Origin: Zygnema cylindricum
Lineage: Eukaryota > Streptophyta > Zygnematophyceae > Zygnematales > Zygnemataceae
Assembly (NCBI GenBank): GCA_037447655.1
Contig: JBBHKE010002026.1
Location: 1-64,000, forward strand
DNA length: 64,000 bases
Direction of reading: 5' to 3'
This document shows positions 15,950 through 58,794 of the stretch, piece by piece (the first letter of the stretch is position 1; every line of letters begins with the position of its first letter). The notes under the pieces are model-generated. The model had not been told where the DNA came from. It saw nothing but the letters and a program-made list of their open reading frames with translations, and did no database searches. A program made the translations under genes and the position numbers.

Positions 15950-16824
15950 TTTCAAATTTTATAAAATTCGTAGTAGAATTCGTACTTTTTATTGACTTTC
16001 AAATTTCAAAATTTTTAAATATTCAAAACTCTAAAAAACTGAAAGTATAACGAGTTAACGGCGAGCGGCGGAATTTACGGCGTCTCAAACGACGGCTTCC
16101 TTCTGAAGACGGAGTGAGGGGACATGAAAATACGCATGCGCAAATGAAGCAACGTTTTTTTTTTGAAGTCCGTACAATTTCTCGTACAGTGTGAACCGTA
16201 CGAAATTTACGAAATTTACGAAACAAGCGAATACTACGTAGTTTTCGGAAAAAAATCCAAATTCGTACGAATAGGACATCTATGTTATATACGGATGGCA
16301 CTATACAGTACACAGTACAGTGCTGCATGACACGACGGTTGAGTATAGTACAGTTGTACCCAAGTATTCTTTTTTGTACGGCAGTTTGAACACGGTTGAA
16401 AGAATTGCAGGAAAAAATGTCAACGTGGAGTTTCAAAAGGTCACGAATCACGAGGCTTGAGGGAGCCTCGTTCTGAACCCTGCCAGTAAAAGCAGAATCT
16501 GCCAATGAGCCTGGAAGTCTGGAATGCCTTTCTACTCTGACTTTCCAGAATCGATGCTAATGTTAGGTTTCCGGCCCGCAGGACAGTCTTTGACACCGTT
16601 ATTGTTTGTATCCATTTCACTTTTGACCGGTGAGATGAACAACGAGGGTTAACATTTCCAGGTTGAAACCGGCAACCATGTGGATTTCATCATAAATTCA
16701 AATATTCATGTGTCCTATATTAAGTTTTTTTTTTCCGCACTATACGTTTGTGCCTCAGGCTGTAGCTCTGCTGTTATCTTCCAAACTTGAGCACCGCAGT
16801 GGTTGTAGGGAAGACTTTAGAAGT
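15950..16824. promoter_or_regulatory. Upstream region and 5' leader of the RBM39-like gene
   Basis: The region lies between the transposon's right target-site copy and the start codon. No TATA box can be assigned with confidence. A pyrimidine-rich stretch (about 16725-16737) precedes the probable 5' untranslated region. The minus-strand frame 16505-16023 matches nothing recognisable. The DNA transposon ends less than 900 bp upstream of the ATG, so it may bring sequence close to the promoter. Confidence 0.4.
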
Positions 16825-19800
16825 ATGGCCGATTTCGATGAATACGAGTATTTGGAGAAGACTGTAGAGAAATCCGATGAACCTCATGATGCAAACGGAG
16901 AGGGTGGAAAAGTAGACGATGGGCACAAGAGTTCCAAGAGACGCAGCAATGAGGAGGAACAGGAGTATCGGACTAAGAGAAGTAGAGGTGATGACGAGCA
17001 CCGCTCTCGTCGGGATGATCGTGAACGTGACAGAGACCGCGATCGTGATCGAGATAGAGATCGGGAACGCGATCGTGATAGAGACCGAGATCGTGATCGT
17101 GACCGTGATCGAGATCGTGAACGTGATAAAGGACGAGAACGGGAGAGAGAGCGCGAGCGTGGGGAAAAGGACAGAGGTCGAGAGCGTGCTAGGGACAGGG
17201 ATAGGGATGGTGAGAAAGACAGAGGAAAGGACAAGGACCGAGATGCAGAGCGTGACAAGTTACGGGAAAAAGAAAGAAGGTGAGAAGTGATGCCTGGACG
17301 GTTTTGTGGAACTTTTAGCAGTGAACGTGCGGCTGTTAACTTTCTGCATTTGCGTTGGTTCTCATATTTTTTTTGGCATGCAGGCAATCCCGAGAGAAGC
17401 GTGATCGTGATCGTGAACGCGAGAAGGAGAAGGAGCCAGCAGCGGAGCCTGAAGCTGACCCGGAGCGTGATCAGCGGACAGTCTTTGCTTATCAGGTAAA
17501 GGAAGGCTAACCTAACTCTTACTACCAGCCTAATACCTTAACCGATGGCTGTTCTCATTCATACATTTTTCTTTTCTTATCTGGAAAAGGAAACCTAACA
17601 AATCATTTAACATTTTAACCTAAGGCTGTTTTCACTTCATACTTTTCCCCTTTTAGCTAGCAACATGGAAGAGTCAGCCCTGCGTCCTTTTGATGCCACT
17701 GTTCTGAGTGGATGTTCTCCTACCTATGTGGTAAGAGTAAAAACTGATTGTTGTTTTCAATCTTTTATTATTTTTGCAGATAAATCTGAAGGCCGATGAG
17801 CGGGATGTGTACGAGTTCTTCAGCAGAGCGGGGAAGGTGTGCACAACTAGACCCATGGTCTGGATCATAGATAAAGTCAAATATTGGGCAATTTGTAGGA
17901 GTGTTAGTGTGTTTTAGCGACACTGAGATAAGTCGTAAAGTGTCCTCGATACAGGACTCTGCCATTGGTCAGTTAGAAAAGTAGTAGGTATTGCCTTGCT
18001 CCCGGCTGTGCTCCTAGTGCACTGATTGATGGAGCTGGTGACTTTGGAATAGGTTGCAAAGTTCGTGGAGTGCCTGGGTGATCGCCAGAGGTATTTGCAC
18101 CGAAGGTGCGTTTGTGCGTTTCTGCCTTGGTTGGTACCAGATTGGATAAAACCCTAATCGGAGAATATTCCATAGTACACCTGCTGGTTCCCCTACCCTA
18201 TTTTTTTTTTCGTACAAGAGGAACGAAGCAGACTACAGGCAGCTAGCTCAGACTTCGCGCATTTTCCACTTTCAGAGGCTTATGAACTAGTGCTGCTTGG
18301 GTGGCTGGACAGGTTCGAGATGTGCGTCTTATTATGGACAGGAACTCCAGAAGGTCGAAAGGAGTCGGGTAAGAGATCTATTCGCCTCTGAATGTTATGC
18401 AAGTCACACTACGAGGTCAAAATTCTGGTCTCGTATGTCTCAAGTAATTTTATTACGATTGCTGTTCCATTGTTGCGGAATTCATTGATGTCCTGGGTTC
18501 GTAACTCTTGTTTGTCATTGTCGTCCAGTGAAAGATTTTGTTTTGCTGATTGTGGTTCTTTTGAATGGGCGCAGGTATATCGAGTTCTATGACGTAATGT
18601 CTGTTCCCATGGCCATCGCCCTTTCCGGACAACTGCTGTTAGGTCAGCCTGTCATGGTGAAGCCATCTGAAGCTGAGAAAAATCTCGTGCAATCGACTCC
18701 ATTGCCCATGATGGCTGGCATGCCTGGCCTAGGGACTCCTGGCCTGTATATTGGCCCGTACTCTGGAGGTGCCAGAAGACTTTATGTTGGGAACCTTCAT
18801 TTTAACATGAGCGAGACAGAGCTTCGACAGGTGCGTGCCAATTGTTGTTTGGTATTTCCTGCTGCTTTATCTTGTAATTTGCTCAGCAACACTGTTCAAA
18901 ATACTTGATACACCACCTGTAAAAATATGCTCATGTCCTCAGAGCTGCAACCTAGATTCAAGGGCATGCGTAAGACAGGGGTAACTTATGCGATATCATT
19001 GTTACAGGTATTTGAACCATTTGGCCCAGTTGAGCTCGTACAGCTGCCAGCTGATCCAGAAACTAACCAGTGCAAAGGCTTCGGATTTGTTCAGGTAAGC
19101 TGCATACAGGACCTATTCATGTCTGGATTAAAACTGTGTCTGATAGTGCTTGTTGTGTTTGTTTTCATATTGAAAAATAGTATTTGCGTTTGTAGTGAAT
19201 TTATGTGCCTGGTTTTATTCAAAATTTTGTTTTTACTGAATTTTAATGTTAAGGAAATTAGAGGTAAAAAGGATTTTGAATATTGTCGTTTGGGTTCTTT
19301 TGTGTTGGAGTATGAGACTGCACAAATTTATTGTAAGCGTGGATGTGCTTTCCATTTTCAATTCTTTTGTATTCTGCCACATTCTTCTTGCCTAAGTGTT
19401 GCAGTGTGGAGATATTGGTGCAAAACCCGTCCACCTTATGTTATTAACAAGTACAAGGTTGTTTCATGGACCGGCAGTATGCCCGTTTGGAGGACGCTCG
19501 CGCAGCTCAGCAAAACTTGAATGGATTGGAGTTGGCTGGACGACCAATTAAGGTCAGAAATGATTTGGAATAAGCTGGGTAACGGTTTTATGGAATGATG
19601 TAATTTTGATGTTTGTAGATAGGTGTGTTATAAACTCCTACAGACATTTAGTTTGATTCAGCAGATGATAACACCGTATTTAAACATGCATGGTATGCAT
19701 AAGTCAGCAGCATTCACCTCTAAGAAGTTTTCCGGGATGTTTTCTGGTTTTTGTTGTTGATTGGAAAAAGAAGTCATAGGAGCCGCTGAATTGTGTCTGA

Positions 19801-22800
19801 TGCTCGGCTATGTCTGTCTTCTTATGTGCAGTCCTTGCTCAGAATAAATTTTTAACTTAGCATGTCTCTCGAAATGCATTGAACTTCATATATGGAACTT
19901 TCAGAGTGTCAAATGTTTTACATGTAATTCGTCTGCAAGAAAGTTGGATTGCAATTCTGTAAAAGTATGTAGCGCATAATGTGTTTGTCTGTGGCTATCA
20001 AAGCAGCTGTCTGGTTGCGATGCTCGTTGGCCTTGCTTTTTCTGTTCTAATCCTTAGTTTGCATTAAACAAAGTTGAGTTTTTTGTGAGGATTTCAATAT
20101 TGTGTTTTTAGGTTAACGTGGAAGTATTAAGTCCTGAGTTGCTACTTCATACAGTATTAACTCAGCATAATTGCTGATTGTCTTTACATTTTGAATATTT
20201 GCATTATTCTGAACATGTGCACCTGGATCAATTCAGTGGTTGCAGTTCAATCTAATGTCCACCTCCTTATTTCACTTGTTTTTTTTTCCAATGAGCAGGT
20301 GACAGCTGTATCAGAACAGATGATGTTACCAGACATGGGCCCGCCTGTTAACCCAGGGGAACTAGATGACGATGAAGGAGGTGGCTTAGTAAGCTTGCTG
20401 GCTTAATATCACTTTGTTGTCCGTTTGTGTACATTAGAGTATAATAAAATTGTGTTTTGTTAGTTTCCTTTTTTTTTGCCCAAAACTGTCTCCTCTTTTT
20501 TTTTTGTACTGAAGCATTTTCTATTTTGATGGTGAACTCCAGTCATTAAATGCACGCTCAAGGGCGGAGTTGATGCTGAAGCTGGATAGAAGTGGCACAG
20601 CTAACAGGTTTGTTCTCGGAGCTATTTGTTTCCATCGATGCATTCTGTCTTTAATCTGAAGCTTTTCTATTTTTGACCTCTGGTATCTATTATCTGTGGG
20701 TTTAAATCACTTGAACCCCTTTAACCTACGTAATTAAAGCAGTGGACTATCATTATTTATTTAAGGAGATTTTTCCAATGTTTTTACGTAAATGAAACCA
20801 TACGAAAAAACATCAATTCCGAAGATGACTGTAAAGAAAAGCAGTACACTGTGCACTACCACCATTACTATAGACCATGGGTAACTCGGAGAATGTAACT
20901 TTTGGCATTGGTACATCAAGATGGATGTAAGTAATGGAGACAGTTATAAGATCTGCAATGATGGCATTCTCATAATTTAGAATCACAGTCATAGGACACG
21001 AGGGATGTTCCACAGATGAGCTGCAGCCTTGCGAACCACACACAAACGTCTCGTTGTCCCATGTCGATATAACACATCAGGGGTTTAGAATTGAACACAA
21101 TTTCCTGTACGGGAATCTTCAACCCCAGGAGACAATAGCTGCTGTCTGTAGCACGTCGCCAATGAAACGCTGTGGGTAAAACATGGATACTGGTTTTCAT
21201 ACACATCATGTTCATTAAATGAAAAGCCATATGGAGATGTGTAGTAAACATCTCTCAGCAGTTTGCAATATTTTATACTACCTGTATGCTACTGCATTTG
21301 AGGAGTGACTGAAGGTTTAACACAACGGTCTTGTTCTTCATGTTGGTCAGTGTTGCAGCAAGCACAACAGTGACTGCACCTGTGGCACCAGCTGGCCTTC
21401 CTGCGGGTGGCCTTGGTATTCTGATGCCGGGACTCCAAGGCCTTTCAGGCCTTACGGGTATGCTACGGCCCGGCATGACCGGGTTTCCTGGCCTCCCTGG
21501 ACTTTCGATGCTCGGCCTTCCAGGAATGGGTATGCCTGGAGCAGGCTTGGCGGGAGCGTCGCCGGGAACAGTTGGGACAGTTCCTGGCGAGGTTGTGGGA
21601 AATCCAAGCGAATGCTTGCTTCTGAAGAATATGTTTGATGAAGAATCAGAGGTGCGCAGAGCCTGACAGAGATATGCCTTCATTTGAAAAGTCACACTTC
21701 TTGTCAGTCACATGAGGAAAATTTGTATATTTTCCTTATGAGCGAATAATGCTTCTTTGCCTGTTTTTCTCTTCTTTTACTTTCAAAAGTGAATTCAAGT
21801 GGACTTTTTAATTTGTCGATTTGTGATAGTTAAAAGTGCTATCTAGGGGAGTTCCAGAATGGCTTAGAATGGAGCTGCAAATGACCTACATGAAACCACG
21901 TGAGTTTGTCTAATAGGAGCTGGTTATTTTCTGTTTGTGTCAAACAGAAGGGACCTGACTTCGAGCTTGATATAAAGGAGGACGTCCAAGATGAATGCAG
22001 CAAGTTTGGCAGTGTGAAGCACATTTTCGTCGACGGGTGAGTTGGAATTGTCAGTCGCTAGCGTGAGAGGTGGACGTGGTCAGTCTAATAAGTTATCCCA
22101 CTGAAACTCAGATTGGCCTGGATGATGAATAAATTATCTTCCTGATTGTGTCGGCAATGGATTGAATGAGTCCCAAACGAGGCAGATAATGCATAAAGCC
22201 TGTGCATATCTTCCTAATTGACTAGCGCTGGAGCTCCTTTGTATACGAGGACGTTCACTGTCTCTCTATGGTCATGCACATGCCATAGTGATATAAGTTC
22301 TGATCTCAATCGGCGAGAATGAGAAGTCTGCCAAATTTAGTTACTCCCCCCTCCGTCCAAGGCTTGTGCTGATGGCAAGTCACATGATTGGGTTATTTCA
22401 GGACCTTGGGTGTTTAGCTGACGATCCCATTCAAGCCGGCCACGCCAGCAGGATGCGCATCTGCAACTTTTGTCTCCCAGCTGGGTCCCTGGGTCCCAGC
22501 ATATGCTGAGTTCCTGTCTGGGCATATGTAGCAGCTCTGGTGGATCAGTCCTTTGCTGTTCAGTGTGTTTGTTGCATAGCTCAATGTGCGAAAACAATTG
22601 GACAGGCTTTATGTGGTGACCCAATCCTATACCAGTATTCACCATATTTTACTGGATATGTAAACTCGTTTAGTATGGGGTTACCGCATATATCGTTTCC
22701 AATCGCGTTCGCACATTTGAACTATGGCTTGTTTATTTTAGGACTGTTGCAGGCTTATGTCAACAGGGTGGTGGTTCTCTGCCTTGAATGGAGAAGTGGA

Positions 22801-23828
22801 GGCTTTACTTTTTCCGGTATGCATGTAGTGGAGAGTGAGTGTTTGCGGTCAAAAGGTGAGACAGTCGGCGGTCAGGTGTATAATGATCGGTCGATGTTCT
22901 GATTGCGTCTTGTGAAAGTGCCCAATTGTGTGGTTATGACTGTGTCGTATGTCTTGGAAGCTCCTTAACGGTGGTTTTGGGTGAGCCGTCCCATGCTCGA
23001 AGATATATCTGGGACCTTTAAGGTAAGTTTGTGGGTGCCATGTATCCACATCATGACTTCTTCTGGAAGTCGCCTATGTGCTATGTCGCTTTCAAGGCAA
23101 CTGGCACCGCCCATTACGTGTAAAGTTAGTGTATTATTAGCCTTAACACTTCATTACAATTAACTACACTAAGGCCTGTGGCTCAATATGGGCCACATAA
23201 AACTAATTTATCACTAAATTTATGATTTTGAGTCGGAATGATCAACCCTAATATCAATGGGCAGTGTAGTCAAACAATGTTTTTATGTCTAAGACAAGCG
23301 AAGGATTTCAATGGATGGTTGCAGGAAGAGTGCGGGCCATGTGTATGTGAAGTTCGACGGCGTGACGTCGGCTCAGACAGCTCAACGTGCTCTTCATGGA
23401 CGCTGGTTTGCTGGAAAAACCATCAGCGCAACCTACATGGTTTGTTACAAATTTCCTTCACTCCTTCACTCCTTCACTCCTTTACTCATAAGAGTAATTA
23501 TTTTAGTGAAGTTTTACCCTGGTTTTGAGGGTAAATCAGGCAACCGGTACAGTTTTTTGGGTAAATTTATACAGTTTGCCCTAAAACTGTGCGATAGGAT
23601 TAGGGAAAATGTATTCCTTGTAATTACCCTATCAGGTAGTGTTATGTATCCAAGGCTCCTTGTCGATATTCGATATGTACCTAATTTTGGGTACCCGATG
23701 ATCAATATATCGCTTCAATATATCAAGGAGCTCAATATCGTGATATTTATGCGATGTATCGGCTGATATCACGATAAACATTTACCGCGATATATCGTAT
23801 TGACGCTAGGTCAATTTTTTTTCCCTCC

Positions 23829-27490: not shown

Positions 27491-28118
27491 TGTCAAGCTC
27501 GAGTGCTTTTTAGGCACACTTCTATATTACCGAGGATTTCCGTACCCTTCCAACCCGTACTATTCTCAGATTTCGGAGAAGCCCGCACAACCTGCCGGAA
27601 GGATTGAAGTATTTCCTCTACTGAACAAGACGCACTTTGTTTCGTGCCTAACGGAGGCTGGACGACAAAGTTCTACCGTCTGAAAGATCGCAGTTCCGTC
27701 ACATAATACTAGCTTCCACCAGCCCTAGTGGAGGGTACATTGTGGATTGCCACGTAGACTTCCGGACTGTAATCTAGATTTTGGTGTTAGCTGTCTGTAG
27801 CAATTCAGTTCAGATTCAGCTGACCAGTTGTTAATTAATTACATTAAGTCAAAGCTTGGCACTTCCGTGTCTTTTTAGTACTTTGTCTTAAAAACTGTGG
27901 AAGAAATAATAACTTCCGGCCGCGGATCTAGCCGTGGTCAGAGGTCCAACTTTTTGCCCCAAGAGTAGTACACATTATTTTGTCTTATGTCAGTTTGATT
28001 GCCGTTGCTGGTCGCTCATTGGCTAATAGCGTAGGTTTGACTTTTGTACCTGATTTTGGACAAACTTTGATGTATAAGGCGCTTGGGGCCGAAGGAGACA
28101 GGTTGCTTTTCAGTACTG
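27491..28118 (+). repeat. Left terminal segment L1 of the methyltransferase element
   Basis: The 628-bp segment is repeated at 38826-39456 at roughly nine-in-ten identity by eye. It begins TGTCAAGC, and homology ends at CAGTACTG. In this copy it runs on into the leader. In the other copy it joins R2 directly. It is the only 5' repeat: the right segment R is absent on this side. Confidence 0.85.
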
Positions 28119-28696
28119 TCTCCTGTGAAAACCCTCAGAAAATCCAACAAACTTTCTTTTGGAAGAATCTTTGTTTTGTTTGACTCTATTGCCATCTTTG
28201 TTTTGGATATGTCCATTGTGGGAATCATAGTGCGGGCTGGTAGTTGGCACTATCGTCCCTTTGGGTGATTTTTGGATCTTTCGCTGCTTGAAACTGAGAA
28301 GAGTCCGGTCGGTTCCGAACTGCGGACACCGAGGGTTGAAGGAGTACCATACCTATTTACACTACCATCGGGAGAGATTTCGCCCTTGTCTCTTTGTTCT
28401 CGTAAATTGTCGGGGTATGTTAAGCTTGCTTCGCCATCTTTTATATCTTCCATCTTATATTTTATTTCTGTGGTCAAGGTGATATTGTTAAATCTGAAAC
28501 AGCCATTCCTATTTATTTTCTATGTGTCCACGTGGTAGTGCATTTGTGTATTCGCTTGTAGTTTCTTTTGCTTTGGCGTGAACTCCCCGGAGTAAACTAC
28601 CTATTCCTTGTATCGAAACAGTGGGTTTTGAGGGAACAAATGCTGTAGACTTCCCGTGAATAAGTACAGTACTGAAAAGCAACCTGTCTCCTTCGG
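28089..28696. repeat. 30-bp exact inverted repeat flanking the leader
   Basis: Positions 28089-28118 and 28667-28696 are exact reverse complements, enclosing 548 bp of leader. The inner edge of the first copy (28118) is exactly where L2 breaks off and joins R2 at 39456/39457. This marks a structure or a template-switch point. Confidence 0.85.
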
Positions 28697-28792
28697 ATTA
28701 GAGGGGATAGGAGTTTTTGACTTTAAAAGCCCACCCGGCGCAATCGAGTTTAGTTTACTTTCGTTTCTTCTTCTTTCAAGAACTTTGTCATA

Positions 28793-31700
28793 ATGGGGGG
28801 AGGCGAAGCCCAAGATAAGAATCTCTCCGGTGCCCGGCCGGAAGAACGGGCGAATCAAGAAGCGGTGGTATCAGAAGAAGAGTCACAGGTTCGCGAAAAA
28901 TCCGTTCTTTTCACCTCATCGGCAAACATAGAGCGGTTTCTCCAGGGGATGATGCTTGAGCCTGTTAGAGTTGAGACTTCTCCAAAACCGCCCGAACCGC
29001 AAACTTCGCCCCCTTTTCCTCCTAGCCTCACGCCTGCACATTTTCCCTCCTTGGCGGAGGCCTCCAGAACCTTTGCCGAGGAAAGAAAGGAGTCCCGAGC
29101 ATAGGCTCAAGAAAGAAACCGAGTGTCACCCCGGGCCAGGCCAAAGAGGCAAGCTCAACGGGAGCCCCTTTTGGGTCCTTTTCCGGAGGTCGGGCATCAC
29201 ACCAGATCAAAGATTCCCAGGGCCGAAATTCAGATTGACCCTACGGTTTTGACAGATCCCAGCCGCCCTGGTCGAAAGGAACTCCTTGCCCTTCATGATC
29301 TTCATGAACTGAAGGTGAAGCAAGAGTTGGTGCAGAGAGTGGCTCGGTCGGATCGACCCCGGGTGGTTAAACCAGTGGGAGGGGTGGTGGAAATTCTAAG
29401 CAGCTCTTCAGAGAGTGGTTCCTCACAGTCCTTGCAGGAAAGGCCTAGGAGGGCTCCTCCTTCTGGCCCTCCTCCATCTTCTTCCCAAGACACTGCAGCA
29501 AGCCGACCGTTCCGGGTGCGCCATGCTTCGAGGTCTCATAGGGGAGCAGGTGGCAGCGAGAGACGGGTTCCAGAGCCGGTGAGGGGGAAGAAGTTTGACC
29601 ACACGGATAGTAAGGGTAGATTTGCCCCTCTTCCCAAGGAAGAACCTTCCCCAACGCCGGCGCCAGTCTCCACCGAGAGATCTTCCCCTATGGCACCCCG
29701 TGTTCGCCCTGACGGAGGGTTATGGCAACCCGGACACACTGACCCAGAGGTTCCGGAAACAGCACCGGAAGAGTTGTCCGAAGGATTGTGGAGAGCCAGG
29801 CCTACAGATCCAGAAATTCTAGGAGCAGGGATAGCTGATCTGACCGGAATAGTGGAAAGGGCTAAGGAACTAGTGGGAATTTTGAAATCTCAGGGCCAGG
29901 CTACGGCGGGGGCTAGACCCGTCACCGTAGATTGGGAGGCTTTGGAGGAAGAACGGAGAAAGTTGTGGGAGCAAGAATTGAACCTTATCCGGGAAGCTCG
30001 GCGGAGGTCAAGTGGGATCCTCAGTGGGCGGATTCTTCCAACACCATTAGCGGAACCCCCGTCTGGAGCTCAACCCCAGGCTCCTTCCTCGGAGACTGGT
30101 GAGGAACCTCCTCTTCAGCGGAAAGAGGGGGCAGACACAAGACCTAATATTGGGGTTTTGGGTGCAGATTCACCGTCTGAATTCGCCGCAGCTCCACGGG
30201 GAGAGCCTACTTTTGTCTCGGTGGAGGTTTCTGAAGCTGTTGAGGCCTTAGTGGAGTTGCGACCGGACGAAAGAATTCAAATACCCCTGAGACCGCCTAC
30301 ACCTCCTTCGCCTCCACCCAGACGGTCCGCTGATCCTCCTCATCCTCCTACCTTTCACTCCCAGGATCCGGCAGCAGAACCCGGCAGCAGACCCCGAGAC
30401 AATCCCATCTCCTCTTCCTCACCTTCCGTTTCCCTTACTAGAGCAGACCGTGGGTCACCAGGTCCTCTGAATTTACCCTACAAGTCAGACGTCTATTCGC
30501 CTCGTCACCGGCGTTCCCCATCCTCCAGTTCCGGAACTCCGCCGCCTGAAATCTCCCGAAGACGGTCCCGGAAACAGACCCCTTTCCGGAGAAGAACTCC
30601 TTCTCCTCAGAACTGGCCTTCGTTGTCTTCTTCTCCATCCCTGCCCAGAGATCAACCTTTGAACAAACCTCGAATCCACATCCCTTCCGAGGAGGAAGTT
30701 CTTAAGGACGAAAGGTATTCCCGTGGATATCGAGGAGTGGACGAAGGGGAGTGGGCCCTTCCTTCTGCGACACCAGGCCAGACAAGTCTTCAGACGCAGC
30801 TACCATCTGCACCCAGGAGGCCAGGAGTTCTTCCCGAGAGGAATACCCTTCCTCCAGCCATCCTTTCAGGGGTTGGTACTTCCTCGGCGGGAGGAGTATC
30901 CCCACCTCGCAGAGCAGCACCTCCTACCGGAGGAGAAGGCGGTCCCGGTCCCGAAGAAGAGGACAAAGGGGTCACTTCGCCGGCACAGTTCGTCAGTCCC
31001 ACCGGCATTTCCTTTTCTCAGTTCACCCAATCAGCGGAAGAGGAGAAAGAAATGGGGGATATTCGAATATTTACAGGGGACAGCTCGGGGATCGCTTTCT
31101 CAGATTTCGAGTTGTTGTGGAAATCGTTCACCCAATCAGAAATCAATAAGTACAGGGGAGGAGCAGTGCCGGATGACTTCGAGACGACCCTCTTTCCCAT
31201 GATGGTCAACTACCTCTCTGGAGGGGCGTTGGCAGACTATAAGGAGCGTCAACCTCTTTTGATGGCTCCTAGCATCAAGATATCTGATCCCACTCTTGAT
31301 GCGGCCGTTTTTCAAGCAGAGGCTGACTTGGCTTCAGCGGCGGCCACCCCTGTGACAGCCACATTCACCGATGATATGAAACTGCAGGCCCAAGGAAGGG
31401 CCTATGTTAACCAGCTGCAAGCTATTCAGGCAGCTCGGGCGGCAACACGCATGGTTGCCAATCCCACCCCTTGTACCACTCTTCTGAATATCTGGCGACT
31501 CCTCTACACCGAGAGAAACGAATCGGCCATCAAGGAATTCACGGAATTCCGATGCCTGAAGAGCGAGACACCCCAGACTCTCTTCAACCGTCTATCTAGC
31601 CTGTGCCACAAAACTAAGCTGTCGACCATTGATCTTCGTGCAATGGCCACGAAGTATTTCATTGCTGTCCGTAATTCCTTCGGACCGACAGGGCAGACTG

Positions 31701-33982
31701 CCTTGGATAACTGGATTGCAGGACAGGCAATCCAGGACATAAATCCCTCGGCCAAGGACATATCCCTGGTGGCCATGAAGTTGTACGACCACTTCGTTCA
31801 CAGTGAGGCTAGGGAAAAAGCCGTGACCGGCAAGGCAAGAGCAAATTTTGCAGGATTCGCTGGGGAGACTTCCTTAAGTGGGGAAGAACAAGCGGAACTC
31901 CAAGCTTTGCGGAAGCTTAAAGGGAAACAAGCTGTGGACAGCGGGCCCGAACCTGCAATGGGGGCCGACGATCGGGTGATTCTGTACAATTGCCTAAATT
32001 GTCAACAACCTGGACATGGATGGAAACGCTGCAGCAGGAAACTCAAACCGGAGCTAGCCCTCAAGTTGAAAGAATGGGAGGTAGAGCGTTCAGAAAGGAG
32101 CCAGAAGCAGCATGAAGAAAGGCTCAAAGCAGGGGGGGGGGAGAGAACACCGGTCACTAAGAACAATTACCGACCCACTCCACGGAGCGAAACTTCGAAA
32201 ATGTCCCAGTCCCAACTGCGGCAAATCAAACTGCCCAAGTTTGACGATGCTCAGATCTCCAACGAGATTCGGAGCAAGTATACCACCGAGGGTCACAAAT
32301 GCGAGGCCTGTGGTTTTATGGGGCACAAGGAGGGGCAATGTTTCCGGAAGAACGGGATCCCGAAGGAAATGATGCAATTTGCTCTGTTCACGGGAGGAGG
32401 AGAGACTGCCGTTAACCCTCTTCCCCTACAACTCCTTTACCCTTGGGAGCGCCCAGTGCTGCCAACACCAGTGACACCAGCACAATTAACGACTGCTCCA
32501 GCAAGACTTACATCGGAGATAATAATCCAACAACAGAGTCAGCAGATGGCTGCCATGGCTGCAGAATTGGCTGCACTTCGTTTGGGGTCGACTTACCGGC
32601 CTGCTCCTCTTACGGCAGCGCAACGACTCCAAAGACAGAAGCAAGAGTTACTACAAAAGCTAGCGGAGCTTGAGCTTCAAAGCACATCGGGTGCTAACGA
32701 AGACGATATGATGGGCTGGGATTTGGAACCCCCAAATGCCCACCATGCAAGCAGTTTCCTGCACGGAGCCTGGAATGTTGGAGTGGGAGATGGTCGTAGA
32801 CAACTCCGCTCCTCAACCTCGGATCAAAGGAGAGACAGGCGGAAAATGGGCCCAAAGGACCACAACCGGAAGGCCACCGGGCCTTTGTCTTTCACGCCCA
32901 GGGCAGTCATTCTGAACAGTGACATAGGCCTTGGGATCAAGCCCACTCAACCCCCTCCTCTTCCTACTCAACCTAAATTGCCTCCCGGTTTCGAAAATTA
33001 CAGGAAAGAGAAACTGCAGCCGGAGACAAGATCATTGGAAGAGGACAAACAGAGCACTCAGGATTGGTTTGAGCGGTTTATGGCCGAACGCCCGGACGAA
33101 GATGCACCGAAAACTCCACCCGTACCCGATTCCGGTTCTGAAACTGATGGCAACGAAGAAATAGAACCGGATCAGGAACAAAATTCGCCTACATCCTCCC
33201 CAAAAGCTCCGCTCCATTCCTCCAAGCCTGCTGTTATGCTGGTCCGGCATTTGATGCCTTATGCCTTGACCCATGTCAAGACCCTTGCTTCCTCCCATAA
33301 TCTGCCCGAAGAGATCCTCATTCAGGCCCTGGGAGAAGAGATCCATTCTGGAAAAGACAAAGTCGACAGGGTGACACCACCCACGGCGGTATACTTGTCT
33401 TCAGATCCTAAGACCCCTATGGCGGATAGGGACTACAAAACTTTGTCCGTAGCACTCATTCTGAACCGGACCGGGAATTTCAAACTGAACGGGTACGGCG
33501 GGTATCAGGACGTTGTGGTTGATACCGGAGCACTTCCCAACCTCATTACTACTTCTGCATTGCAGAAAATGCCGGAAGAACTCAGACCCCAGATCTGCCC
33601 GAGTAACATCTGCTTGAGCACAGTCAGCAGCGGCAATCAGCCAGTCCATGGAATCATCAAAGCCATGGATATTGAATTCTCAGATGATGCGGGACAGAAG
33701 GTGAAAATTGGACTTCCTTTCTTAGTGGTAGAAGGGAATCAGTTTGAAATTTTGTTCGGAATGGCAACTTGGACCCGCATAAATATGAGTTTGAGTGTTT
33801 GGAAGGAGCAATGTAGAGTTCGGGATCCAGGAAATCCCGAAGGAACCAAAGTTGTGGTTCCTTTGGATTTATGGAACCGGGGAAAGACCAATGTTCCAGT
33901 GTTTGGCTGTAACCCCGTGTATTCTACAACCTCTCCGGTGGAGCTGTTTGACAGTTCCACAGATATTGCCGAAGACATCTAG
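28793..33982 (+). CDS. Gag and aspartic protease of the methyltransferase element
   Basis: An ATG at 28793 opens the frame. An in-frame TAG at 29102 is followed by a 1619-codon open stretch to TAG at 33980. The N-terminal third is Pro/Ser/Arg/Glu-rich and probably disordered. A gag-like helical region follows (about 31080-31900: LLWKSFTQ, TRMVANP, FRCLKSETPQTLFNRL). Two CCHC zinc knuckles lie at 31991-32032 (CLNCQQPGHGWKRC) and 32300-32341 (CEACGFMGHKEGQC). The protease active site is VVVDTGA (33513-33533) with ILFGMATW downstream. The gag is unusually long, with widely spaced knuckles. Gag packages the RNA and protease cuts the polyprotein. The protein would be whole but for the 29102 stop. 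The methyltransferase follows in the same frame. Confidence 0.9.
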
Positions 33983-35491
33983 CAATTCCCGATTTCCAAG
34001 CGGTGGGAAAGGGAATACACAGTCAGATTATTGCAGGTGGCGAAACTCCGGCGGGGAGTGGATCAAACCTTCTCGGCCTTACTATTACCGAAAACAGATT
34101 CGACGATACAGTTAGATGTTTTCAAAAACCAGACTGGGAGCGAAGCCTTCAATCGACAAGTGGTGTCATTGAAAGTCCCCGACTCCGGACTTCGGATTTT
34201 ATCTTTATTTTCAGGAATCAGTTCTGATTTGGAGGCAGTTTTAAAGGCAGGGTATCAAGTGGAGTCCTACACTGCAGTGGAGATTTCACCGGAAGCTCAA
34301 GCTGTCAGCGAATACCGCCTACATCAACTGCACCGCTTATATCCTCAACAGCTTCCAGTGTCTTCCATTTCCACAGCTCACCGGAGTCTTCCCCAGAATG
34401 TGGATAATATAATGGCACCTCATTTAGCTAGTCTGGGAAGAGCAGATCTGGTTGTGGCGGGATGGCCTTGTCAGGGATACTCCCTAGCAGGACAAGGAAG
34501 AGGGCATCAGGACCACCGAAGTGGAACCTTCTATCAGATGATTTCATTGATATCGTGGATTTAGCAACTCCAAGACACACCCGTGGGGTACATTCTGGAG
34601 AATGTCCACCCGGGGGATGATAAACGAAAGCAGGTTGCAGAAAATTGGAATCAGGTAACCCGTATCCTGGGAGCTCCCTTGGTTTTTGACGCTGCTCAAA
34701 TGGGATCTTGAGCGCACAGACTCTGGGCATATTGGACCAATATGATCCCTCTTCCAGTCCTCGGACAACTGTTGGAGACATAAACCCCCGACCCCCAGAT
34801 TTCAGTACAACAAATACTTGGAAAAGGGAGAATAACGACACCTGTAACAAAGCCGGATCGCACACCTTTTTTCCAATGCAATATCCCCGGATTCCCACGT
34901 CGAGCACTCCCCACGTTGGTATCTTTTCCTCACAGTCACGCCTACCGGAAAGGGGCAGCTGGAATGATTTTTGACAGCAAGGAAAGACTTTGGACAGCCC
35001 CAACAATATCGGAACGAGAACAGGCAATGGGATTTCATCTGGAAACCACGGCAGCACCAGGTATTTCAGACCAACAGAGGTGCAGCCTCATAGGGCAAAG
35101 CATGGATTTAAATGCCATTACATGGGTTGTAAAGCATGCTCTTGCCTATTCTAGTATCCGCGCTCCAGATTCACGCAAAAATTACCTTCAAGCTCCACAA
35201 TTACTGTCCATGCAAGCAACTTTGCAGCTTGAGGGGGGGAGAGAAAAGAGAAAAATTCTACACCAGAGAGTTCCTTCAGTGGGGGAGAACAGGAGCTCAG
35301 AAGGAGATAACTTAGCGGGAGTTGTCAGCAGAAAAGTATTATCCGGAGGAATAGAGATAGATCCACAGGTTGGGCTAGAATTCGACATCAACCTCTGGGG
35401 GAAACCACCGGAAGCTTGGGCTGCGGTTGAGCCGGGCAAAATGGACTGGACTCTGAGGAGCAGCTGGACCCTTAGCAGAAAGAACAGCTAA
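33983..35491 (+). pseudogene. C5 cytosine DNA methyltransferase domain within the gypsy polyprotein, interrupted by stops
   Basis: Same frame as gag-protease, continuing past the TAG at 33980. Motifs occur in canonical order. Motif I is LRILSLFSGISS (about 34190-34225), binding S-adenosylmethionine, followed by AVEI. Motif IV is VAGWPCQGYS with the catalytic Cys at 34469-34471. Motif VI is ILENV (34592-34606). A motif VIII-like AHRLW lies at about 34712. A short target-recognition stretch is followed by motif IX (RLWTAPTISEREQAMGF, about 34987) and motif X (LIGQSMDLNAITWV, about 35089). The predicted activity is 5-methylcytosine formation on DNA. Stops within it are TAG 34562, TGA 34709 and TAA 34781. 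The frame ends at TAA 35489, followed by a frame change to RT. No N-terminal regulatory domain is present. Its subfamily (DNMT1/CMT, DNMT3/DRM or other) cannot be settled by eye. Confidence 0.92.
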
Positions 35492-38067
35492 CAGAACTCT
35501 TGGCTAGAAACACGCAGGTTTTCTTATGGTCCCAAACAGATGTCGGAATCTACAAAGGAACCCCCTTTCGGATAGATTTGATCGACGAAACCGCAACGGT
35601 TTGGCAGAAACAATATCCTCTCAGCTTCAAAGAGAAAGAGTTTATTACTGCAAAGGTTCAAACTTTGGTGGACGCAGGGTTGGTTCAGGAGAGTACCGGA
35701 CTCCATGGGTTTGCTTCCCCCACAGTTCTCCCTCCTAAGAAGGATTCATCCGGGAAAACTGTGGACTTCCGAATGTGTGGGGACTACCGCATGTTGAACA
35801 CGGCCACCATTCCTGACCGGTACCCAATGCCAACTCCGAAAGAGATATTCGACTCTCTTGCTGGGGCCACTATTTTCTCCACACTGGACATGAAGAATGG
35901 TTTCCACCAGATTGCCATGGAACCAAAACACCGGGAGAGAACTGCATTCTGGGCCGGATCCAGACTTTATGAGTGGCTTTATATGCCCTTCGGACTGAAG
36001 AATGCACCAGCCAAGTTCCAACGGGCCATGGATGAAGCACTCCGAGGAATCGATTGTGCCCGGTGCTACATCGACGATGTGATAATATTCTCCAAGACTT
36101 TTGAGGAACATCTGGAGCACATCCAGATCGTTCTCCGGGCCCTTCAAGCAGCGGGCTTGAAATGTCACCCGGGCAAGGGTATTTTTGGGGTGCAGAAAAT
36201 TATTTACCTCGGACATGAGGTGACTCCTGGGACAGTGGGTCCCCATATGGTTAAGGTTGCAGCCCTCGACGCTCTTCCTCCCCCGCAGGACATTTCTGCC
36301 TTGCGCACCTTTCTTGGCGTGGCCAACTACTATCGCAGGTTTATTCCTGAGTTCAGTAGTCACGCCCAGCCCCTAAATAAGCTATTGCGGAAAGATCAAG
36401 AATGGCTGTGGGCCGAGGAACAACAGATCGCTTTCCAGTTCTTGAAGGATGCCCTGAAGCAGCACCCAGTGCTCCGGATGCCTGATCACCAAAGGCCTTT
36501 CCTCCTTTACACCGATTGGAGTAGGTTTGGATTGGGAGCTGTTTTGGCTCAAGTTGACGACGCAGGTGCCGAGTATGTGGTGGCTTACGCCAGCCGGAGC
36601 AATAACCGAGCTGAGGGAAATTATAGCAGTTATCATGGGGAGCTTCTTGCCGCGGTTTGGGCCATCCAGCATTTCAGACCTTATTTGTACGGGGTCCATT
36701 TCACACTAATCACCGATCACCAACCCTTGAAGTGGATCATGGAAAATAGTAAGTTGACCGGCAAACTCGCCAGATGGGTTCTTATCCTGCAGGAATATGA
36801 TTTCAGCATTGTCCACCGGGCAAGGGAAATTCATGGGAATACCGACGGACTCAGCCGAAACCCCGATCCTTCTACCCTGGATTCCACCGGGGCTCGGCAC
36901 GACGAGGATCCGGAAATCAGTTTGGGACTTATTCGAGCATCCTCCGTCTTCATTTGGCTTCTTCCATCTGGGGGGGAATTGTCAACTTTTGCAGCAGATG
37001 TTGAGGGGCAGGCACCCATAGGAGCCGGACGAAAAGACATCTGGAATGACTCCGAAGCTCTCCAATCTATTCAGCAGGGATCCCCTCTTTCCCACTTGGC
37101 TGGAATGCAATTATCCCGAGTTCAGACCAGGATGGCGGCATATGAATAAGACCGAGGAGTGCTCCTCCAGAAATGGACAGACGGTACTAGGAAAGTGGTT
37201 CCTCCTCCCTCTGATCGAGAAACTCTGATTACCAATCTCCATAACCAATGTGGACACTTCGGACAGAAGCGAACCACTTCCTTGGTTACAGGCTCTTACT
37301 GGTGGCACAGGTTGCGGGCCCAAGTCAACCGAAGTGTACAGACTTGCACTTCCTGCGACCGAGTTAAGGCAGCTTTTGACAAAAAGGGCGGAACTGAGCT
37401 CCATTCTCTTCCCATCAGGGGAATGTTTTATCGGTGGTCTTTAGATCTTTTGGGACCTCTTCCGACCAGCAGACGTGGGAATCGTTTCGTTCTGGTCATG
37501 ATTGAACATTTCTCAAAATGGATCGAGCTTGTGGTCCTTCCCCGAAAGGAGTCCAAGTCCATTGCTGACGCCTTTCTGCAGAGAGTCCTGTCACAGTTTG
37601 GGGCGCCAGCAAAGGTTCTCACAGACCAGGGATCGGAATTCGCCAGAGAATTAACCAATCTTTTGGAGAAATGCCTCATCGACCATCGACTTACCAGTCG
37701 CGACCACCCCGAAGCCGACGGATTGGCCGAAAGGTGCGTACAGACACTGAAGCGGTCACTGCGGAAATATGCAGTTGAAGAGGACTTGGGAGAGTGGGAC
37801 ACAAGGGTGCCTTGGATTGCCATGGGATACAGATTCAGCAGACTGGCTTCTCTTCACTCCTACAGCCCTTACTTCATTTTATTCAGACGGCATCCCATTC
37901 TGCCTAGGGCTGCCTCTGCAGAAGCGGTGGTCTTCCCGGCAATGGATGACAAGGGAACTGTCGAAAAACTGATCGCCGACCGTGCCAAAATTTTCCACCG
38001 GGAGATGCCTCTCGCCATGGGGAATTTACAGGCAGCACAACACCGAGATCAATTGTGGTATTCCTAG
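35476..38067 (+). CDS. Reverse transcriptase, RNase H and DDE integrase of the methyltransferase element
   Basis: This frame differs from gag-methyltransferase. It is open from just after TAG 35473, with one internal TAA at 37147. RT has FSTLDMKNGFHQI and CYIDDVIIFS (catalytic Asp 130, 192, 193 counted from 35500). RNase H has LYTDWS, HGELLAAV, LITDHQPL and GNTDGLSR (Asp 339, Glu 381, Asp 406, Asp 449). After the TAA, integrase has an HHCC zinc site (His 28, His 33, Cys 63, Cys 66 counted from 37159). Its DDE triad is Asp 96 (about 37444), Asp 156 (37624) and Glu 191 (37729), spaced D-59-D-34-E. All catalytic residues are retained. The domain order RT-RNase H-integrase is Ty3/gypsy. TAG at 38065 separates it from the C-terminal tail, which stays in frame. 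Confidence 0.93.
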
Positions 38068-38496
38068 CGCCGGAGCGGAGATTATGTGCCCCGACAGCGA
38101 CGATTTATGCCGGGAGACTTTGTGTATCGCATGCAACAGAAAAATGACACGCTTGACATTTCTGCCGGGCGTGTGATCTTGAAAGTGTTGGAAGTTTCAA
38201 ATAAGGGAGTTCTGACTTTGGAAGGGAAAGATGGGCGAAGAATTAAAGAGAATCAAATCAATGTGGCCCCTTGTCACCTTCGAGGATTAGATGACGAACC
38301 GACTTTCCACTTGACTTACTTTGCCGACCCTCCTTCCTGTTCACTATCCTGCCACCTGTCCTCCCAGCAGCAAGACACCTTAGTCTGCCATCAGTGCGGG
38401 CAGTGCTGGCATCCCTCTTGTCTCCCCTCCTCATGGGAACCATGCCCTCCATCCCCTAGTCCATGGTTCTGCGGGAACTGTGAATTGGGCGGGTAA
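38068..38496 (+). CDS. Integrase C-terminal tail with PHD finger
   Basis: Continues the integrase frame after TAG 38065. First comes a GPF/SH3-like integrase tail (FMPGDFVYRMQQK, GRVILKVLEV, DGRRIKENQINVAP). Then, at 38338-38481, a Cys4-His-Cys3 array: CSLSC, CHQC, HPSC and CGNC, with a Trp before the His and a Trp-Phe before the last Cys pair, as in PHD fingers. PHD fingers read histone H3 tails. Here the finger occupies the place where chromoviruses carry a chromodomain, so it may guide integration to chosen chromatin. The first Cys pair has three residues between the cysteines rather than two. No chromodomain was found in this element. Confidence 0.85.
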   Translation, partial: RRSGDYVPRQRRFMPGDFVYRMQQKNDTLDISAGRVILKVLEVSNKGVLTLEGKDGRRIKENQINVAPCHLRGLDDEPTFHLTYFADPPSCSLSCHLSSQQQDTLVCHQCGQCWHPSCLPSSWEPCPPSPSPWFCGNCELGG

Positions 38497-38523
38497 CTAT
38501 TTCTTTTTCTTAGTCACGATTGA

Positions 38524-38545
38524 CTAAGAGGGGGGGAAATTAGGG
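38524..38545 (+). other. Polypurine tract of the methyltransferase element
   Basis: A purine run, AAGAGGGGGGGAAATTAGGG, lies about 30 bp past the last stop and just before R1. A G-run occupies the same place before the right-end segment in the 6030-7421 relative. This is the position of a plus-strand primer, which makes R1 the sequence next to the priming site. Confidence 0.7.
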
Positions 38546-38552
38546 TACCGAC

Positions 38553-38823
38553 CCGATTACCGAGAACCCAACCCCTTTCCCCGGCTTAATGGGGAAAGTA
38601 AGGGGGAGGGGAGATCTTTTCGCCTTCCCATGCACTCATCCCTATTCCCTATCCTTGTGCCTCTCCTATCTGATCATGCATGCCTATTGGGAGGGATGGG
38701 GTCAACAGTGGGCATTATCATTACTATGGGAAGCATTCGCATTGGTGGGTTCTTTGCAGGACGCCGAGACCGGCCATTCCGGACAGCGGGCCCTTCCCTT
38801 GTGTTTCTCGGGCACGCTCGACA
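38553..38823 (+). repeat. Right terminal segment R1
   Basis: The 271-bp segment is repeated, with few differences, at 39457-39727. Both copies end GGCACGCTCGACA. R1 follows the polypurine tract and is separated from L2 only by GC. Confidence 0.9.
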
Positions 38824-38825
38824 GC

Positions 38826-39456
38826 TGTCAAGCTCGAGTGCTTTTCAGGCACACTTCTATATTACCGAGGATTTCCGTACCCTTCCTACCCGTACTGTAC
38901 TCAGAGTACGGAAATGTGAGCGCAACCAGCCGGAAGGATTATGGTAGTTCCTCTATTGAACAAGACGCACTTTGTTTCGTGCCTAACGGAGGCTGGACGA
39001 CAAAGTTCGACCGTCTGAAAGATCGCAGTTCCGTCACCTAGTACTAGCTCCCACCAGCCCTAGTGGAGGGTACATTGTGGATTGCCACGTAGACTTCCGG
39101 ACTGTCATCTAGATTTTGCTGTTAGCTGTGTGTAGCAATTCAGTTCAGATTCAGCTGACTAGTAGTTAATTAATTACATTAAGACAAAGCTTGGCACTTC
39201 CGTGTCCTTTTCTTTGTGGTTTGGCTTATAACTGCGGATCAAATAATAACTTCCGGCCGCGGATCTCGCCGTAGTCAGATGTTTAACTTTTTGCCCCAAG
39301 TGTAGTACGGACTATTTGGTCCTCTGTTAGTTCGATTGCTCTTGCTTGCCGCTCATTGGTTCATAGCATAGTTCTGACTTTTGGACCTGATTTTGGACAA
39401 ACTTTTGATGTATAAGGCGCTTGGGGCCGAAGGAGACAGGTTGCTTTTCAGTACTG
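38826..39456 (+). repeat. Left terminal segment L2 (second copy)
   Basis: Second copy of the 27491-28118 segment, starting TGTCAAGCTCGAG and ending CAGTACTG. It is placed between the two R copies, giving R1-L2-R2. Confidence 0.9.
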
Positions 39457-39727
39457 CCGATTACCGAGAACCCAACCCCTTTCCCCGGCTTAATGGGGAA
39501 AGTAAGGGGGAGGGGAGATCTTTTCGCCTTCCCATGCACTCATCCCTATTCCCTATCCTTGTGCCTCTCCTATCTGATTATGCATGCCTATTGGGAGGGA
39601 TGGGGTCAGCAGTGGGCATTATCATTATTATGGGAAGCATTCGCATTGGTGGGTTCTTTGCAGGAGGCCGAGACCTGCCATTCCGGACAGCGGGCCCTTC
39701 CCTTGTGTTTCTCGGGCACGCTCGACA
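39457..39727 (+). repeat. Right terminal segment R2 (second copy)
   Basis: Second 271-bp copy of R1. Its end at CTCGACA (39727) abuts sequence matching the 3' end of a copia pol (compare 58726 onward). It is therefore either the true outer end of the element or a breakpoint. Confidence 0.9.
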
Positions 39728-40852
39728 AAACCTATGCCTTCCCCTAAACTTATTTTCTACAGGGAGAACTGTGGTCTTAAAAAAAAGAGTGACTAGAAAA
39801 TAATGGGAGTGTAGAAATTAAAGGTTCTTTTAGTATTTTCTTGGTTTTGTAAAAGATAAAATGCAGAAAAGAAACAAAAGCAGTCTACCACTAACTCCTC
39901 TCTTCAGCTCCTACACTTGTCGCAATCAGTGAATGTTGGAGAGGGAGCTAGAGCCATGGCTACCTATGCTATCCAGAAGGAGAAGATAGTAGATTGGTAG
40001 ATTTACCAAAATGGAACTTGACAGACCCAGGATTTGAACCTGGTACCTATCGTTGTCAAAGTCGCAGGTAGCTAGTAGTTCTATCTAATTAGTCTAAGAC
40101 GAGTGTTACGTGATATAAGGTTTGATAACTATATAAATATTTATGCGTAGACTATTTGATTTAACAGAATTTTAGGACATAGATATAGTTTGTATTGTAC
40201 GGATACAAAACATCTCGAAACAAATAACTCGCATTTGTTTGAAGTGTGACATAAATACCGCGGAAGTATTTATGACGGCTAAGATTGAAATCCGGTTTCG
40301 ATCGGACAACCGCAAAGAAAGTCGAGATCACGGAATATGATTTTGGCGGTTTGCGCTCATTGCCACATGGAATGACACGTGGCACAACCACATTGAATTG
40401 CGGCATCTCCGAGAATAATAGGAACCAATCCAGATATGACATGTGTCGACATTTTGGCCATGTCGTACAATGTCCGTACAGAAAGTACACCGAAACCTGT
40501 ACCTTTTTGTAAGACACAGTATTGTAATTGGTGCCGTACCTTAGTAGATACAGTTTTAGAGAGAGATAGGAGTTAGAAAAATTAGGTAGATAGGACCCTC
40601 TCTCCGAGAGATCTTTTGTAGAAAAGGTCAACTTTGACTTACCATAACTTACTGCTCAGGGGAGCAAATTTAGAGATTCTTTTTGCTATCGACTCAAGGG
40701 AGTCTTACCTTCCCAATAGTGAAAGTGGTCAGGTTTTTGTTTCATCAGGGTAGCAGCTATTCTTGCTGAAACACAAACGGGTCACAATTATCCACTTCGT
40801 GTGAGTTGCCTACTTTGAGGACCTATGGAGGTCTCAGAGTTACAAACTCAGG
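39728..40852 (+). mobile_element. Copia 3' end, LTR and leader, plus strand
   Basis: The first 80 bases correspond to the copia pol 3' end and polypurine tract (as at 58726-58794). The LTR then starts TGTAGAAATTAAAGG at 39810. It contains an antisense tRNA-like segment (about 40028-40105) and the CCGCGCATTTGTTT-like region shared by this family. The leader ends in ACCTATGGAGGTCTCAG, the start of the copia gag, and after about 20 bases meets a minus-strand gag head to head. Confidence 0.75.
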
Positions 40853-58740: not shown

Positions 58741-58794
58741 TTGCCGGGAAAAGTGTGGTCTGAAATTAAAGATTGACTAGAAAATAAGGGGAGT

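Follow-up and report, generated by a model that had tools for sequence, protein, structure and literature searches.

A DNMT3-type methyltransferase domain in the Gag-Pol of gypsy-like retroelements with split repeats in Zygnema cylindricum

A 64,000-nucleotide stretch of the genome of the alga Zygnema cylindricum (contig JBBHKE010002026.1; here called the window, to whose positions all coordinates refer, on the forward strand unless otherwise stated) contains a gypsy-like retroelement in which a DNMT3-type C5-cytosine methyltransferase (DNMT) domain, so classed by profile and fold ranking, stands between the aspartic protease and the reverse transcriptase (RT). The same order of domains recurs at many other loci of the genome, the DNMT is conserved and under purifying selection, the repeats of the element are split, and some copies are bounded by 4-bp target-site duplications. 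The explanation favoured here for the whole, with moderate confidence, is that the window holds a decayed, mosaic copy of a Ty3/gypsy element whose Gag-Pol DNMT3 would mark the complementary DNA (cDNA) of the element or its insertion site, with a PHD finger that would aid targeting.

The DNMT domain proper extends from about 34142 to 35170 and is interrupted by the stop codons TAG 34562, TGA 34709 and TAA 34781. When stops are read as X, the frame 33983-35488 matches PF00145 with an E-value of 2.2e-9 (37.7 bits, cut-off 22), and its best relatives of solved structure are DNMT3A chains (2e-8). A profile built from 11 relatives without the window sequence, the relatives themselves having first been found by use of the window, matches the three stop-free pieces of the window DNMT with E-values of 1e-46, 1e-14 and 8.5e-46, and the best shuffled six-frame piece in the control reached only E 1.2. 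The original prediction, made from the letters of the sequence, had considered that profile searches might fail to place the domain in the C5 methyltransferase family; PF00145 places it there above the curated cut-off. No other DNMT piece was found at E 1 in a search of the 64-kb window. The motifs, whose names are our own reading, occur in the canonical, unpermuted order that had been predicted: I at 34199-34219, IV (PCQ) at 34460-34477, VI (ENV) at 34592-34606, VIII at 34694-34720 with its second Arg replaced by Trp, a IX-like motif at 34904-34927 and X at 35012-35107. Motif I thus stands before motifs IV to X, and there is no circular permutation of the DRM kind. By profile and fold, DNMT3 ranks above DNMT2 and the bacterial enzymes, in a profile ranking whose 57 sequences include no chain named DNMT1, and in this sense the window domain is a DNMT3-type enzyme.

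Zinc knuckles and a DTG protease lie 5' of the DNMT in the same frame as the DNMT, while RT, RNase H, H2C2 domain and rve integrase lie 3' of it. The gag frame starts at the first ATG (28793) of the stretch 28754-29101 and runs to 29101, where TAG 29102 ends it. It is followed by a gag-protease open frame of 1625 amino acids (29105-33979), with zinc knuckles at 31991-32032 and 32300-32341, in which no Pfam family was found at E 0.1. The aspartic protease occupies 33434-33979 (DTG within 33512-33547) and is matched by phmmer to the relatives P0006 (1.4e-18) and P0003 (5.5e-6), the latter of which contains the Pfam family Asp_protease_2. RT and RNase H follow at 35476-37146 (RVT_1 5.7e-29, RT_RNaseH 1.6e-36; YIDD within 36064-36084), and a DDE integrase with an H2C2 zinc domain at 37150-38064 (Integrase_H2C2 2.8e-15, rve 1.1e-13). 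The order RT-RNase H-integrase, with H2C2 and DDE integrase, is that of Ty3/gypsy elements, and no tyrosine recombinase appears in Pfam scans of the six coding stretches of the window. The PF00145 match and the flanking domains together bear out the predicted place of a C5 methyltransferase between protease and RT.

The DNMT is in the gag-protease frame, as the original prediction has it. Not mentioned there are TAG 33980, which separates the DNMT from the protease, and the different frame of the RT, the two frames overlapping at 35476-35491. In the relative P0001, DNMT and RT form one frame. The stops of the window copy are at 29102, 33980, 34562, 34709, 34781, 37147 and 38065. This copy is dead, since a broken DNMT frame cannot make the enzyme, and the idea of an element-borne enzyme stands for the domain carried in gag-pol but not, with these stops and the frameshift, for the window copy as its source. 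TAA, TAG and TGA all break the coding regions of the other elements in the window (e.g., 1365 TAA, 47270 TGA, 56869 TGA and 62397 TAG), which favours decay over recoding; an alternative genetic code, with stops read as Gln, is rejected on account of the mixture of breaks.

The domain is not confined to the window. P0001 was searched against the 352.8-Mb assembly (2689 contigs), and the best 65 of 3968 candidates, the window locus not among them, were scored. This gave at least 71 matches at at least 65 loci, each with DNMT and RT parts, which fall within one match at 59 loci and in two matches at 6; nine of the 71 matches are stop-free. P0001 spans DNMT and RT, so that copies lacking a DNMT could escape. 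The DNMT thus recurs beside the same RT, which speaks against an accidental chimera, and the outcome that would have refuted the original prediction, other copies lacking the domain, was not observed in this search. Among the PF00145 matches outside the P0001 loci, a second, distant family is present in the same genome at C1344:88501-92500 (L061) and C1407:186501-190000 (L062), where gag, protease, DNMT and RT share one open frame (1332 and 1166 amino acids in the stretches read). These two copies are nearly identical by eye; as far as the loci were read, their RT is 46% identical to that of the window and their DNMT 40% to that of P0001.

Selection was estimated from the ratio of nonsynonymous to synonymous divergence (dN/dS) at 20 of the 65 loci, with stop-bearing copies included and stop codons skipped. 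Pairs, which are not independent, were kept when 0.05 < dS < 1.5, a filter that dropped 137 of the 190 DNMT pairs. The median dN/dS is 0.275 for the DNMT (53 of 190 pairs) and 0.276 for the RT (51 pairs), with DNMT values of 0.13 for the pair L001-L003 (dN 0.024, dS 0.188) and 0.24 for L001-L019. The presence of stop-bearing copies should raise the ratio. The DNMT is, with dN/dS below 1, under purifying selection, and the catalytic Cys is retained in 19 of the 20 loci.

Three protein homology searches gave 139 relatives, among them proteins from Marchantia polymorpha (P0020), Calypogeia fissa (P0013), Monoraphidium neglectum (P0007) and Closterium sp. NIES-53 (P0066, P0078, P0101), a transcriptome record (GHRQ01, P0108) and metagenome proteins; scans of IMG/VR with P0001 and with an alignment gave no relative. 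The domain is thus widespread in the green lineage, and it occurs in two positions, protease-DNMT-RT as in the window (position I) and RNase H-DNMT-integrase (position II). When the 139 proteins and the window frame were typed by matching window parts, the DNMT stood alone in 99 of 140; 37 proteins showed position II (RNase H-DNMT and/or DNMT-integrase), and 4 showed position I (protease-DNMT or DNMT-RT). Position I rests on matching for five proteins (P0066 via Pfam) and for others, e.g., P0011, P0013, P0020 and P0102-P0105, on reading of protease-like or RT-like stretches. The DNMT tree comprises 70 domains and a DNMT3A-fragment outgroup on a very long branch, and leaves aside the 70 of 140 rows that cover under 85% in one stretch (P0006, P0066 and P0078 among them). 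In this tree 35 position II rows and 5 unplaced rows form one clade (100/100), and the window groups with P0001 (99/82); in the RT tree two position I rows are separate from 17 position II rows (99/97). Since the position II rows form one clade, the DNMT would most simply have changed place once within Pol, or been exchanged once, in either direction. Across 15 full class II polyproteins the median conservation is 51.5% for DNMT, 51.7% for RT and 51.6% for integrase. The DNMT domains of P0014-P0019, P0021, P0022, P0025, P0027 and P0032 closely resemble one another and are in part decayed; most are from metagenomes of the Joint Genome Institute, and they look as though a single repeat-rich genome had supplied them.

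The window element spans 27491-39727 and reads A1-ORFs-B1-GC-A2-B2, where ORFs are the open reading frames and A and B the two repeats. A1 (27491-28118) begins with TGTC, has TATAAGG at 28073-28079 and is 89.6% identical to A2 (38826-39456). The 5' untranslated part (28119-28662) that follows A1 is within the A repeat of four other full copies and is missing from A2, which thereby lacks a 544-base part. B1 (38553-38823) is 98.2% identical to B2 (39457-39727), which ends in GACA, and sequence comparison places the palindromic B1-GC-A2 junction, GACAGCTGTC, at 38820-38829. An exact 31-base inverted repeat (28089-28119/28666-28696) brackets the 5' untranslated part; about 24-30 of its bases are present in 11 of the 14 other left ends, but it is not at the corresponding place in the 6.8-kb fragment, and a reading of it as a self-priming structure was set aside. 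A second-copy fragment on the reverse strand (6372-6996) has the end of A and the 5' part with the same junction, at 72-77%. The term gypsy-like accordingly describes the order RT-RNase H-integrase but not the repeats: in place of two identical flanking long terminal repeats (LTRs), the arrangement is A-ORFs-B-GC-A-B wherever both A repeats were read, and the window element has the split direct repeats of DIRS/PAT elements.

Of the 30 loci fetched and sorted from 40 matches to the start of A, five have the B-GC-A junction, 14 are left ends, in none of which A is followed by B, five are solo A-B copies and six are cut short. The junction copies are those of the window and of contigs C1508, C746, C2610 and C886. 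In the latter four, the left A is on the same contig, A is about 1170 bases long (A plus the 544-base part), A1/A2 identity is 97.25-97.95% and B1/B2 identity 96.6-98.9%; integrase and tail are seen in all four, and protease, DNMT and RT in the three of them that were checked (C746, C2610 and C886). Each of the four is bounded by a 4-bp target-site duplication at its outer ends. A sixth split-repeat copy, on C1374, has an extra 3.7 kb, a further B copy and no duplication; its junction is again GACAGCTGTC, and that of a minus-strand copy on C544 is GACAACTGTC. Among the six split-repeat copies that could be read at both ends, four thus have a duplication, and the window and C1374 have none. A single unit A-ORFs-B on C161 has the duplication CAGG, and one of the five solo A-B copies, whose right flanks are all different, has a duplication. 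End flanks match in 6 of the 12 loci compared, against 0 of 132 cross pairs, so the insertion ends are A1-left and B2-right. The 4-bp duplications at these ends fit insertion by an integrase better than by a tyrosine recombinase. The solo A-B and A-ORFs-B forms may be products of A/A or B/B recombination.

The window copy itself looks like a mosaic of sub-lineages. Its A1 is nearest to C886 (95%) and C161 (94%) and its 5' part to C161 and C544 (96%), while A2 (97%), B1 (99%) and B2 (98%) are nearest to C1508, with A2 equally near to C2026 and C1156. The flanks share no duplication. A1 and A2 differ by 9.7% and B1 and B2 by 1.8% (Fisher p 9e-6), a difference that recombination between two copies would explain. 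The right flank (39724-40793) is an apparent copia relic: the stretch 39724-39800 has its match at 58707-58784, and the stretch 40443-40793 has matches in repeats near 54 and 59 kb.

Behind the integrase, a tail at 38068-38493 consists of an SH3/Tudor-like part and a PHD finger, and a homologous tail is present in 31 of the 139 relatives. The finger (38338-38481) is of the C4HC3 type, and its eight ligands are invariant over 27 aligned rows. The Pfam PHD match of the window tail is weak (0.0041, under the cut-off), and PHD is above the cut-off in all eight scanned relatives in which the finger is complete (P0028, P0030, P0042, P0106, P0108, P0111, P0118 and P0128; P0023 ends inside it). AlphaFold2 models the tail with middling scores (predicted local distance difference test 79.8, predicted template-modelling score 0.50), and the best Foldseek matches of the model, PHF1/MTF2 chains, have E 6.6e-4 with a template-modelling score of only 0.34 over the query. 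The PHD tail suggests a part in the choice of chromatin at integration. After the finger, class II polyproteins (P0108, P0111 and others) add a conserved stretch with WGxxHYxG, RPxYFxV and DGD, which is missing from the window element.

Because the same arrangement is found in many copies, some of them unbroken, and in green-algal and liverwort relatives, the enzyme probably serves the element itself. Position and conservation fit, by analogy, a Gag-Pol enzyme used in the particle on cDNA. The DNMT would be translated within Gag-Pol, released from it by the protease and packaged together with RT and integrase; around integration it would methylate CG sites of the double-stranded cDNA of the element, or insertion-site chromatin, and new copies would thereby carry the marks of resident DNA from the outset. 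The integrase tail and PHD finger may help to choose the chromatin. The internal B-GC-A junction is probably the template that restores both ends in replication, as has been proposed for DIRS/PAT elements, and the DDE integrase would insert the product. Several observations weigh against this explanation. Stops are present in 62 of the 71 P0001 matches, and the window copy is inactive; the identity between window and P0001 is lower in the DNMT (49.6%) than in the RT (76%); 6 of the 12 loci compared, the window among them, are without a duplication; and the Klebsormidium gypsy DNMT yielded no methylation in yeast (PMC5890265), an assay in which human DNMT3B failed too, so that the authors draw no conclusion on the Klebsormidium enzyme.

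It is less probable, though worth weighing, that the enzyme acts in trans, methylating host genes or silencing loci or flooding the genome and so blunting defence, with self-methylation of cDNA not its point. DNMT loci are indeed very numerous: PF00145 has 123 matches over the 353 Mb, of which 103, perhaps with host genes among them, lie elsewhere than at the 65 P0001 loci. Host-wide effects in Symbiodinium are discussed in PMC5890265; yet a DNMT inside gag-pol beside the RT favours work in the particle. More doubtful still is a domain kept for binding nucleic acid, e.g., as a chaperone of template transfer, or for methylating RNA rather than DNA: this would agree with the Klebsormidium result in yeast and with the motif IV Pro, which 7 of the 35 class II domains have replaced, but of 70 near-full domains 69 retain the catalytic Cys and 69 the motif VI Glu, and the best match is to DNMT3, not to DNMT2. 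Very improbable is a functionless DNMT fragment that landed in one element, conceivable only for the window copy, which is broken, mosaic and without a target-site duplication, since the same order is found in at least 65 loci, in other organisms and, in one open frame, in the second family on C1344 and C1407, with dN/dS below 1.

Hosts use DNA methylation to silence mobile elements. An element that keeps a de novo type methyltransferase under selection inverts this usual picture and raises the question of what the element gains, which the many copies, the stop-free members, the two positions and the liverwort and algal relatives make testable. Split repeats together with target-site duplications mean that the layout needs no tyrosine recombinase, which bears on the origin of such repeats. 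Tentatively, these elements could be an old, separate gypsy lineage of the green lineage, uniting DIRS-like split repeats replicated from a B-GC-A template, insertion of the entire unit by a DDE integrase with 4-bp duplications, a DNMT3 writer that moved once between the protease and the integrase side of Pol, and a PHD reader; if so, one polyprotein would both mark its own DNA and read chromatin. The four features were not found described together in the accessible part of the open-access literature.

Elsewhere in the window, exons at 16696-23763 resemble what we take to be a splicing factor of the RBM39/CC1 type with RS and RRM parts, and an inverted repeat at 13732-14274/15362-15904 has arms of 543 bases, 99% complementary and 1087 bases apart.

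The precedent invoked for DNMT-bearing retrotransposons is real: gypsy elements with a Dnmt3 in Pol and DIRS-like repeats are already known from Klebsormidium. By its published description, KnitGypsy-Dnmt3 of Klebsormidium nitens is the closest known system (de Mendoza et al. 2018, PMC5890265). It shares with the window family the gypsy domain set, a Dnmt3-type domain in Pol that is free of introns and of the DRM rearrangement, and purifying selection; its repeats are described as the same as those of a DIRS element, and those of the window family are also split. The available text of that report contains no PHD, protease or Marchantia and gives target-site duplications for SymbioLINE only, and no protein named K. 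nitens is among the matches of the three homology searches. DNMT3 members in retrotransposons of streptophytes and dinoflagellates are also mentioned in passing, as LTR Copia and DIRS, in a 2025 report (PMC12344493), which further describes ChloroDNMT, a lineage present in chlorophytes and charophytes whose members often have a PWWP domain. In the open-access literature, as far as its text was available, no report was found of the protease-side position, of the second position and its clade, of a PHD finger or 4-bp duplications on split repeats in such elements, or of their spread to liverworts, Closterium and Monoraphidium.

Animal DNMT3A and DNMT3B are the nearest in solved sequence and predicted fold (the P0002 model has about 26% identity). 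Motif IV is PCQ in the window DNMT and PCN in DNMT3A, and the companion domains of DNMT3A/3B, ADD and PWWP (PMC12344493), were not found beside the window DNMT in a Pfam scan of its frame. PAT/DIRS elements share the split direct repeats A1-B1-A2-B2 with the window family but are described as having a tyrosine recombinase in place of the integrase and no target-site duplication (PMC4157794), and where DIRS elements carry a methyltransferase, it is in some of them an adenine enzyme of the Dam type (PMC5890265). SymbioDIRS-Dnmt3 of dinoflagellates is like the window family in its Dnmt3-type domain in Pol, its A-coding-B-A-B repeats and its more than one order of domains, and differs in having a tyrosine recombinase where the window family has a DDE integrase, a gypsy-type RT and 4-bp duplications in some copies. 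According to the same report, de novo CG methylation was obtained in yeast with two SymbioDIRS DNMTs, and a particle-borne DNMT acting on cDNA has been proposed for SymbioDIRS-Dnmt3 (PMC5890265).
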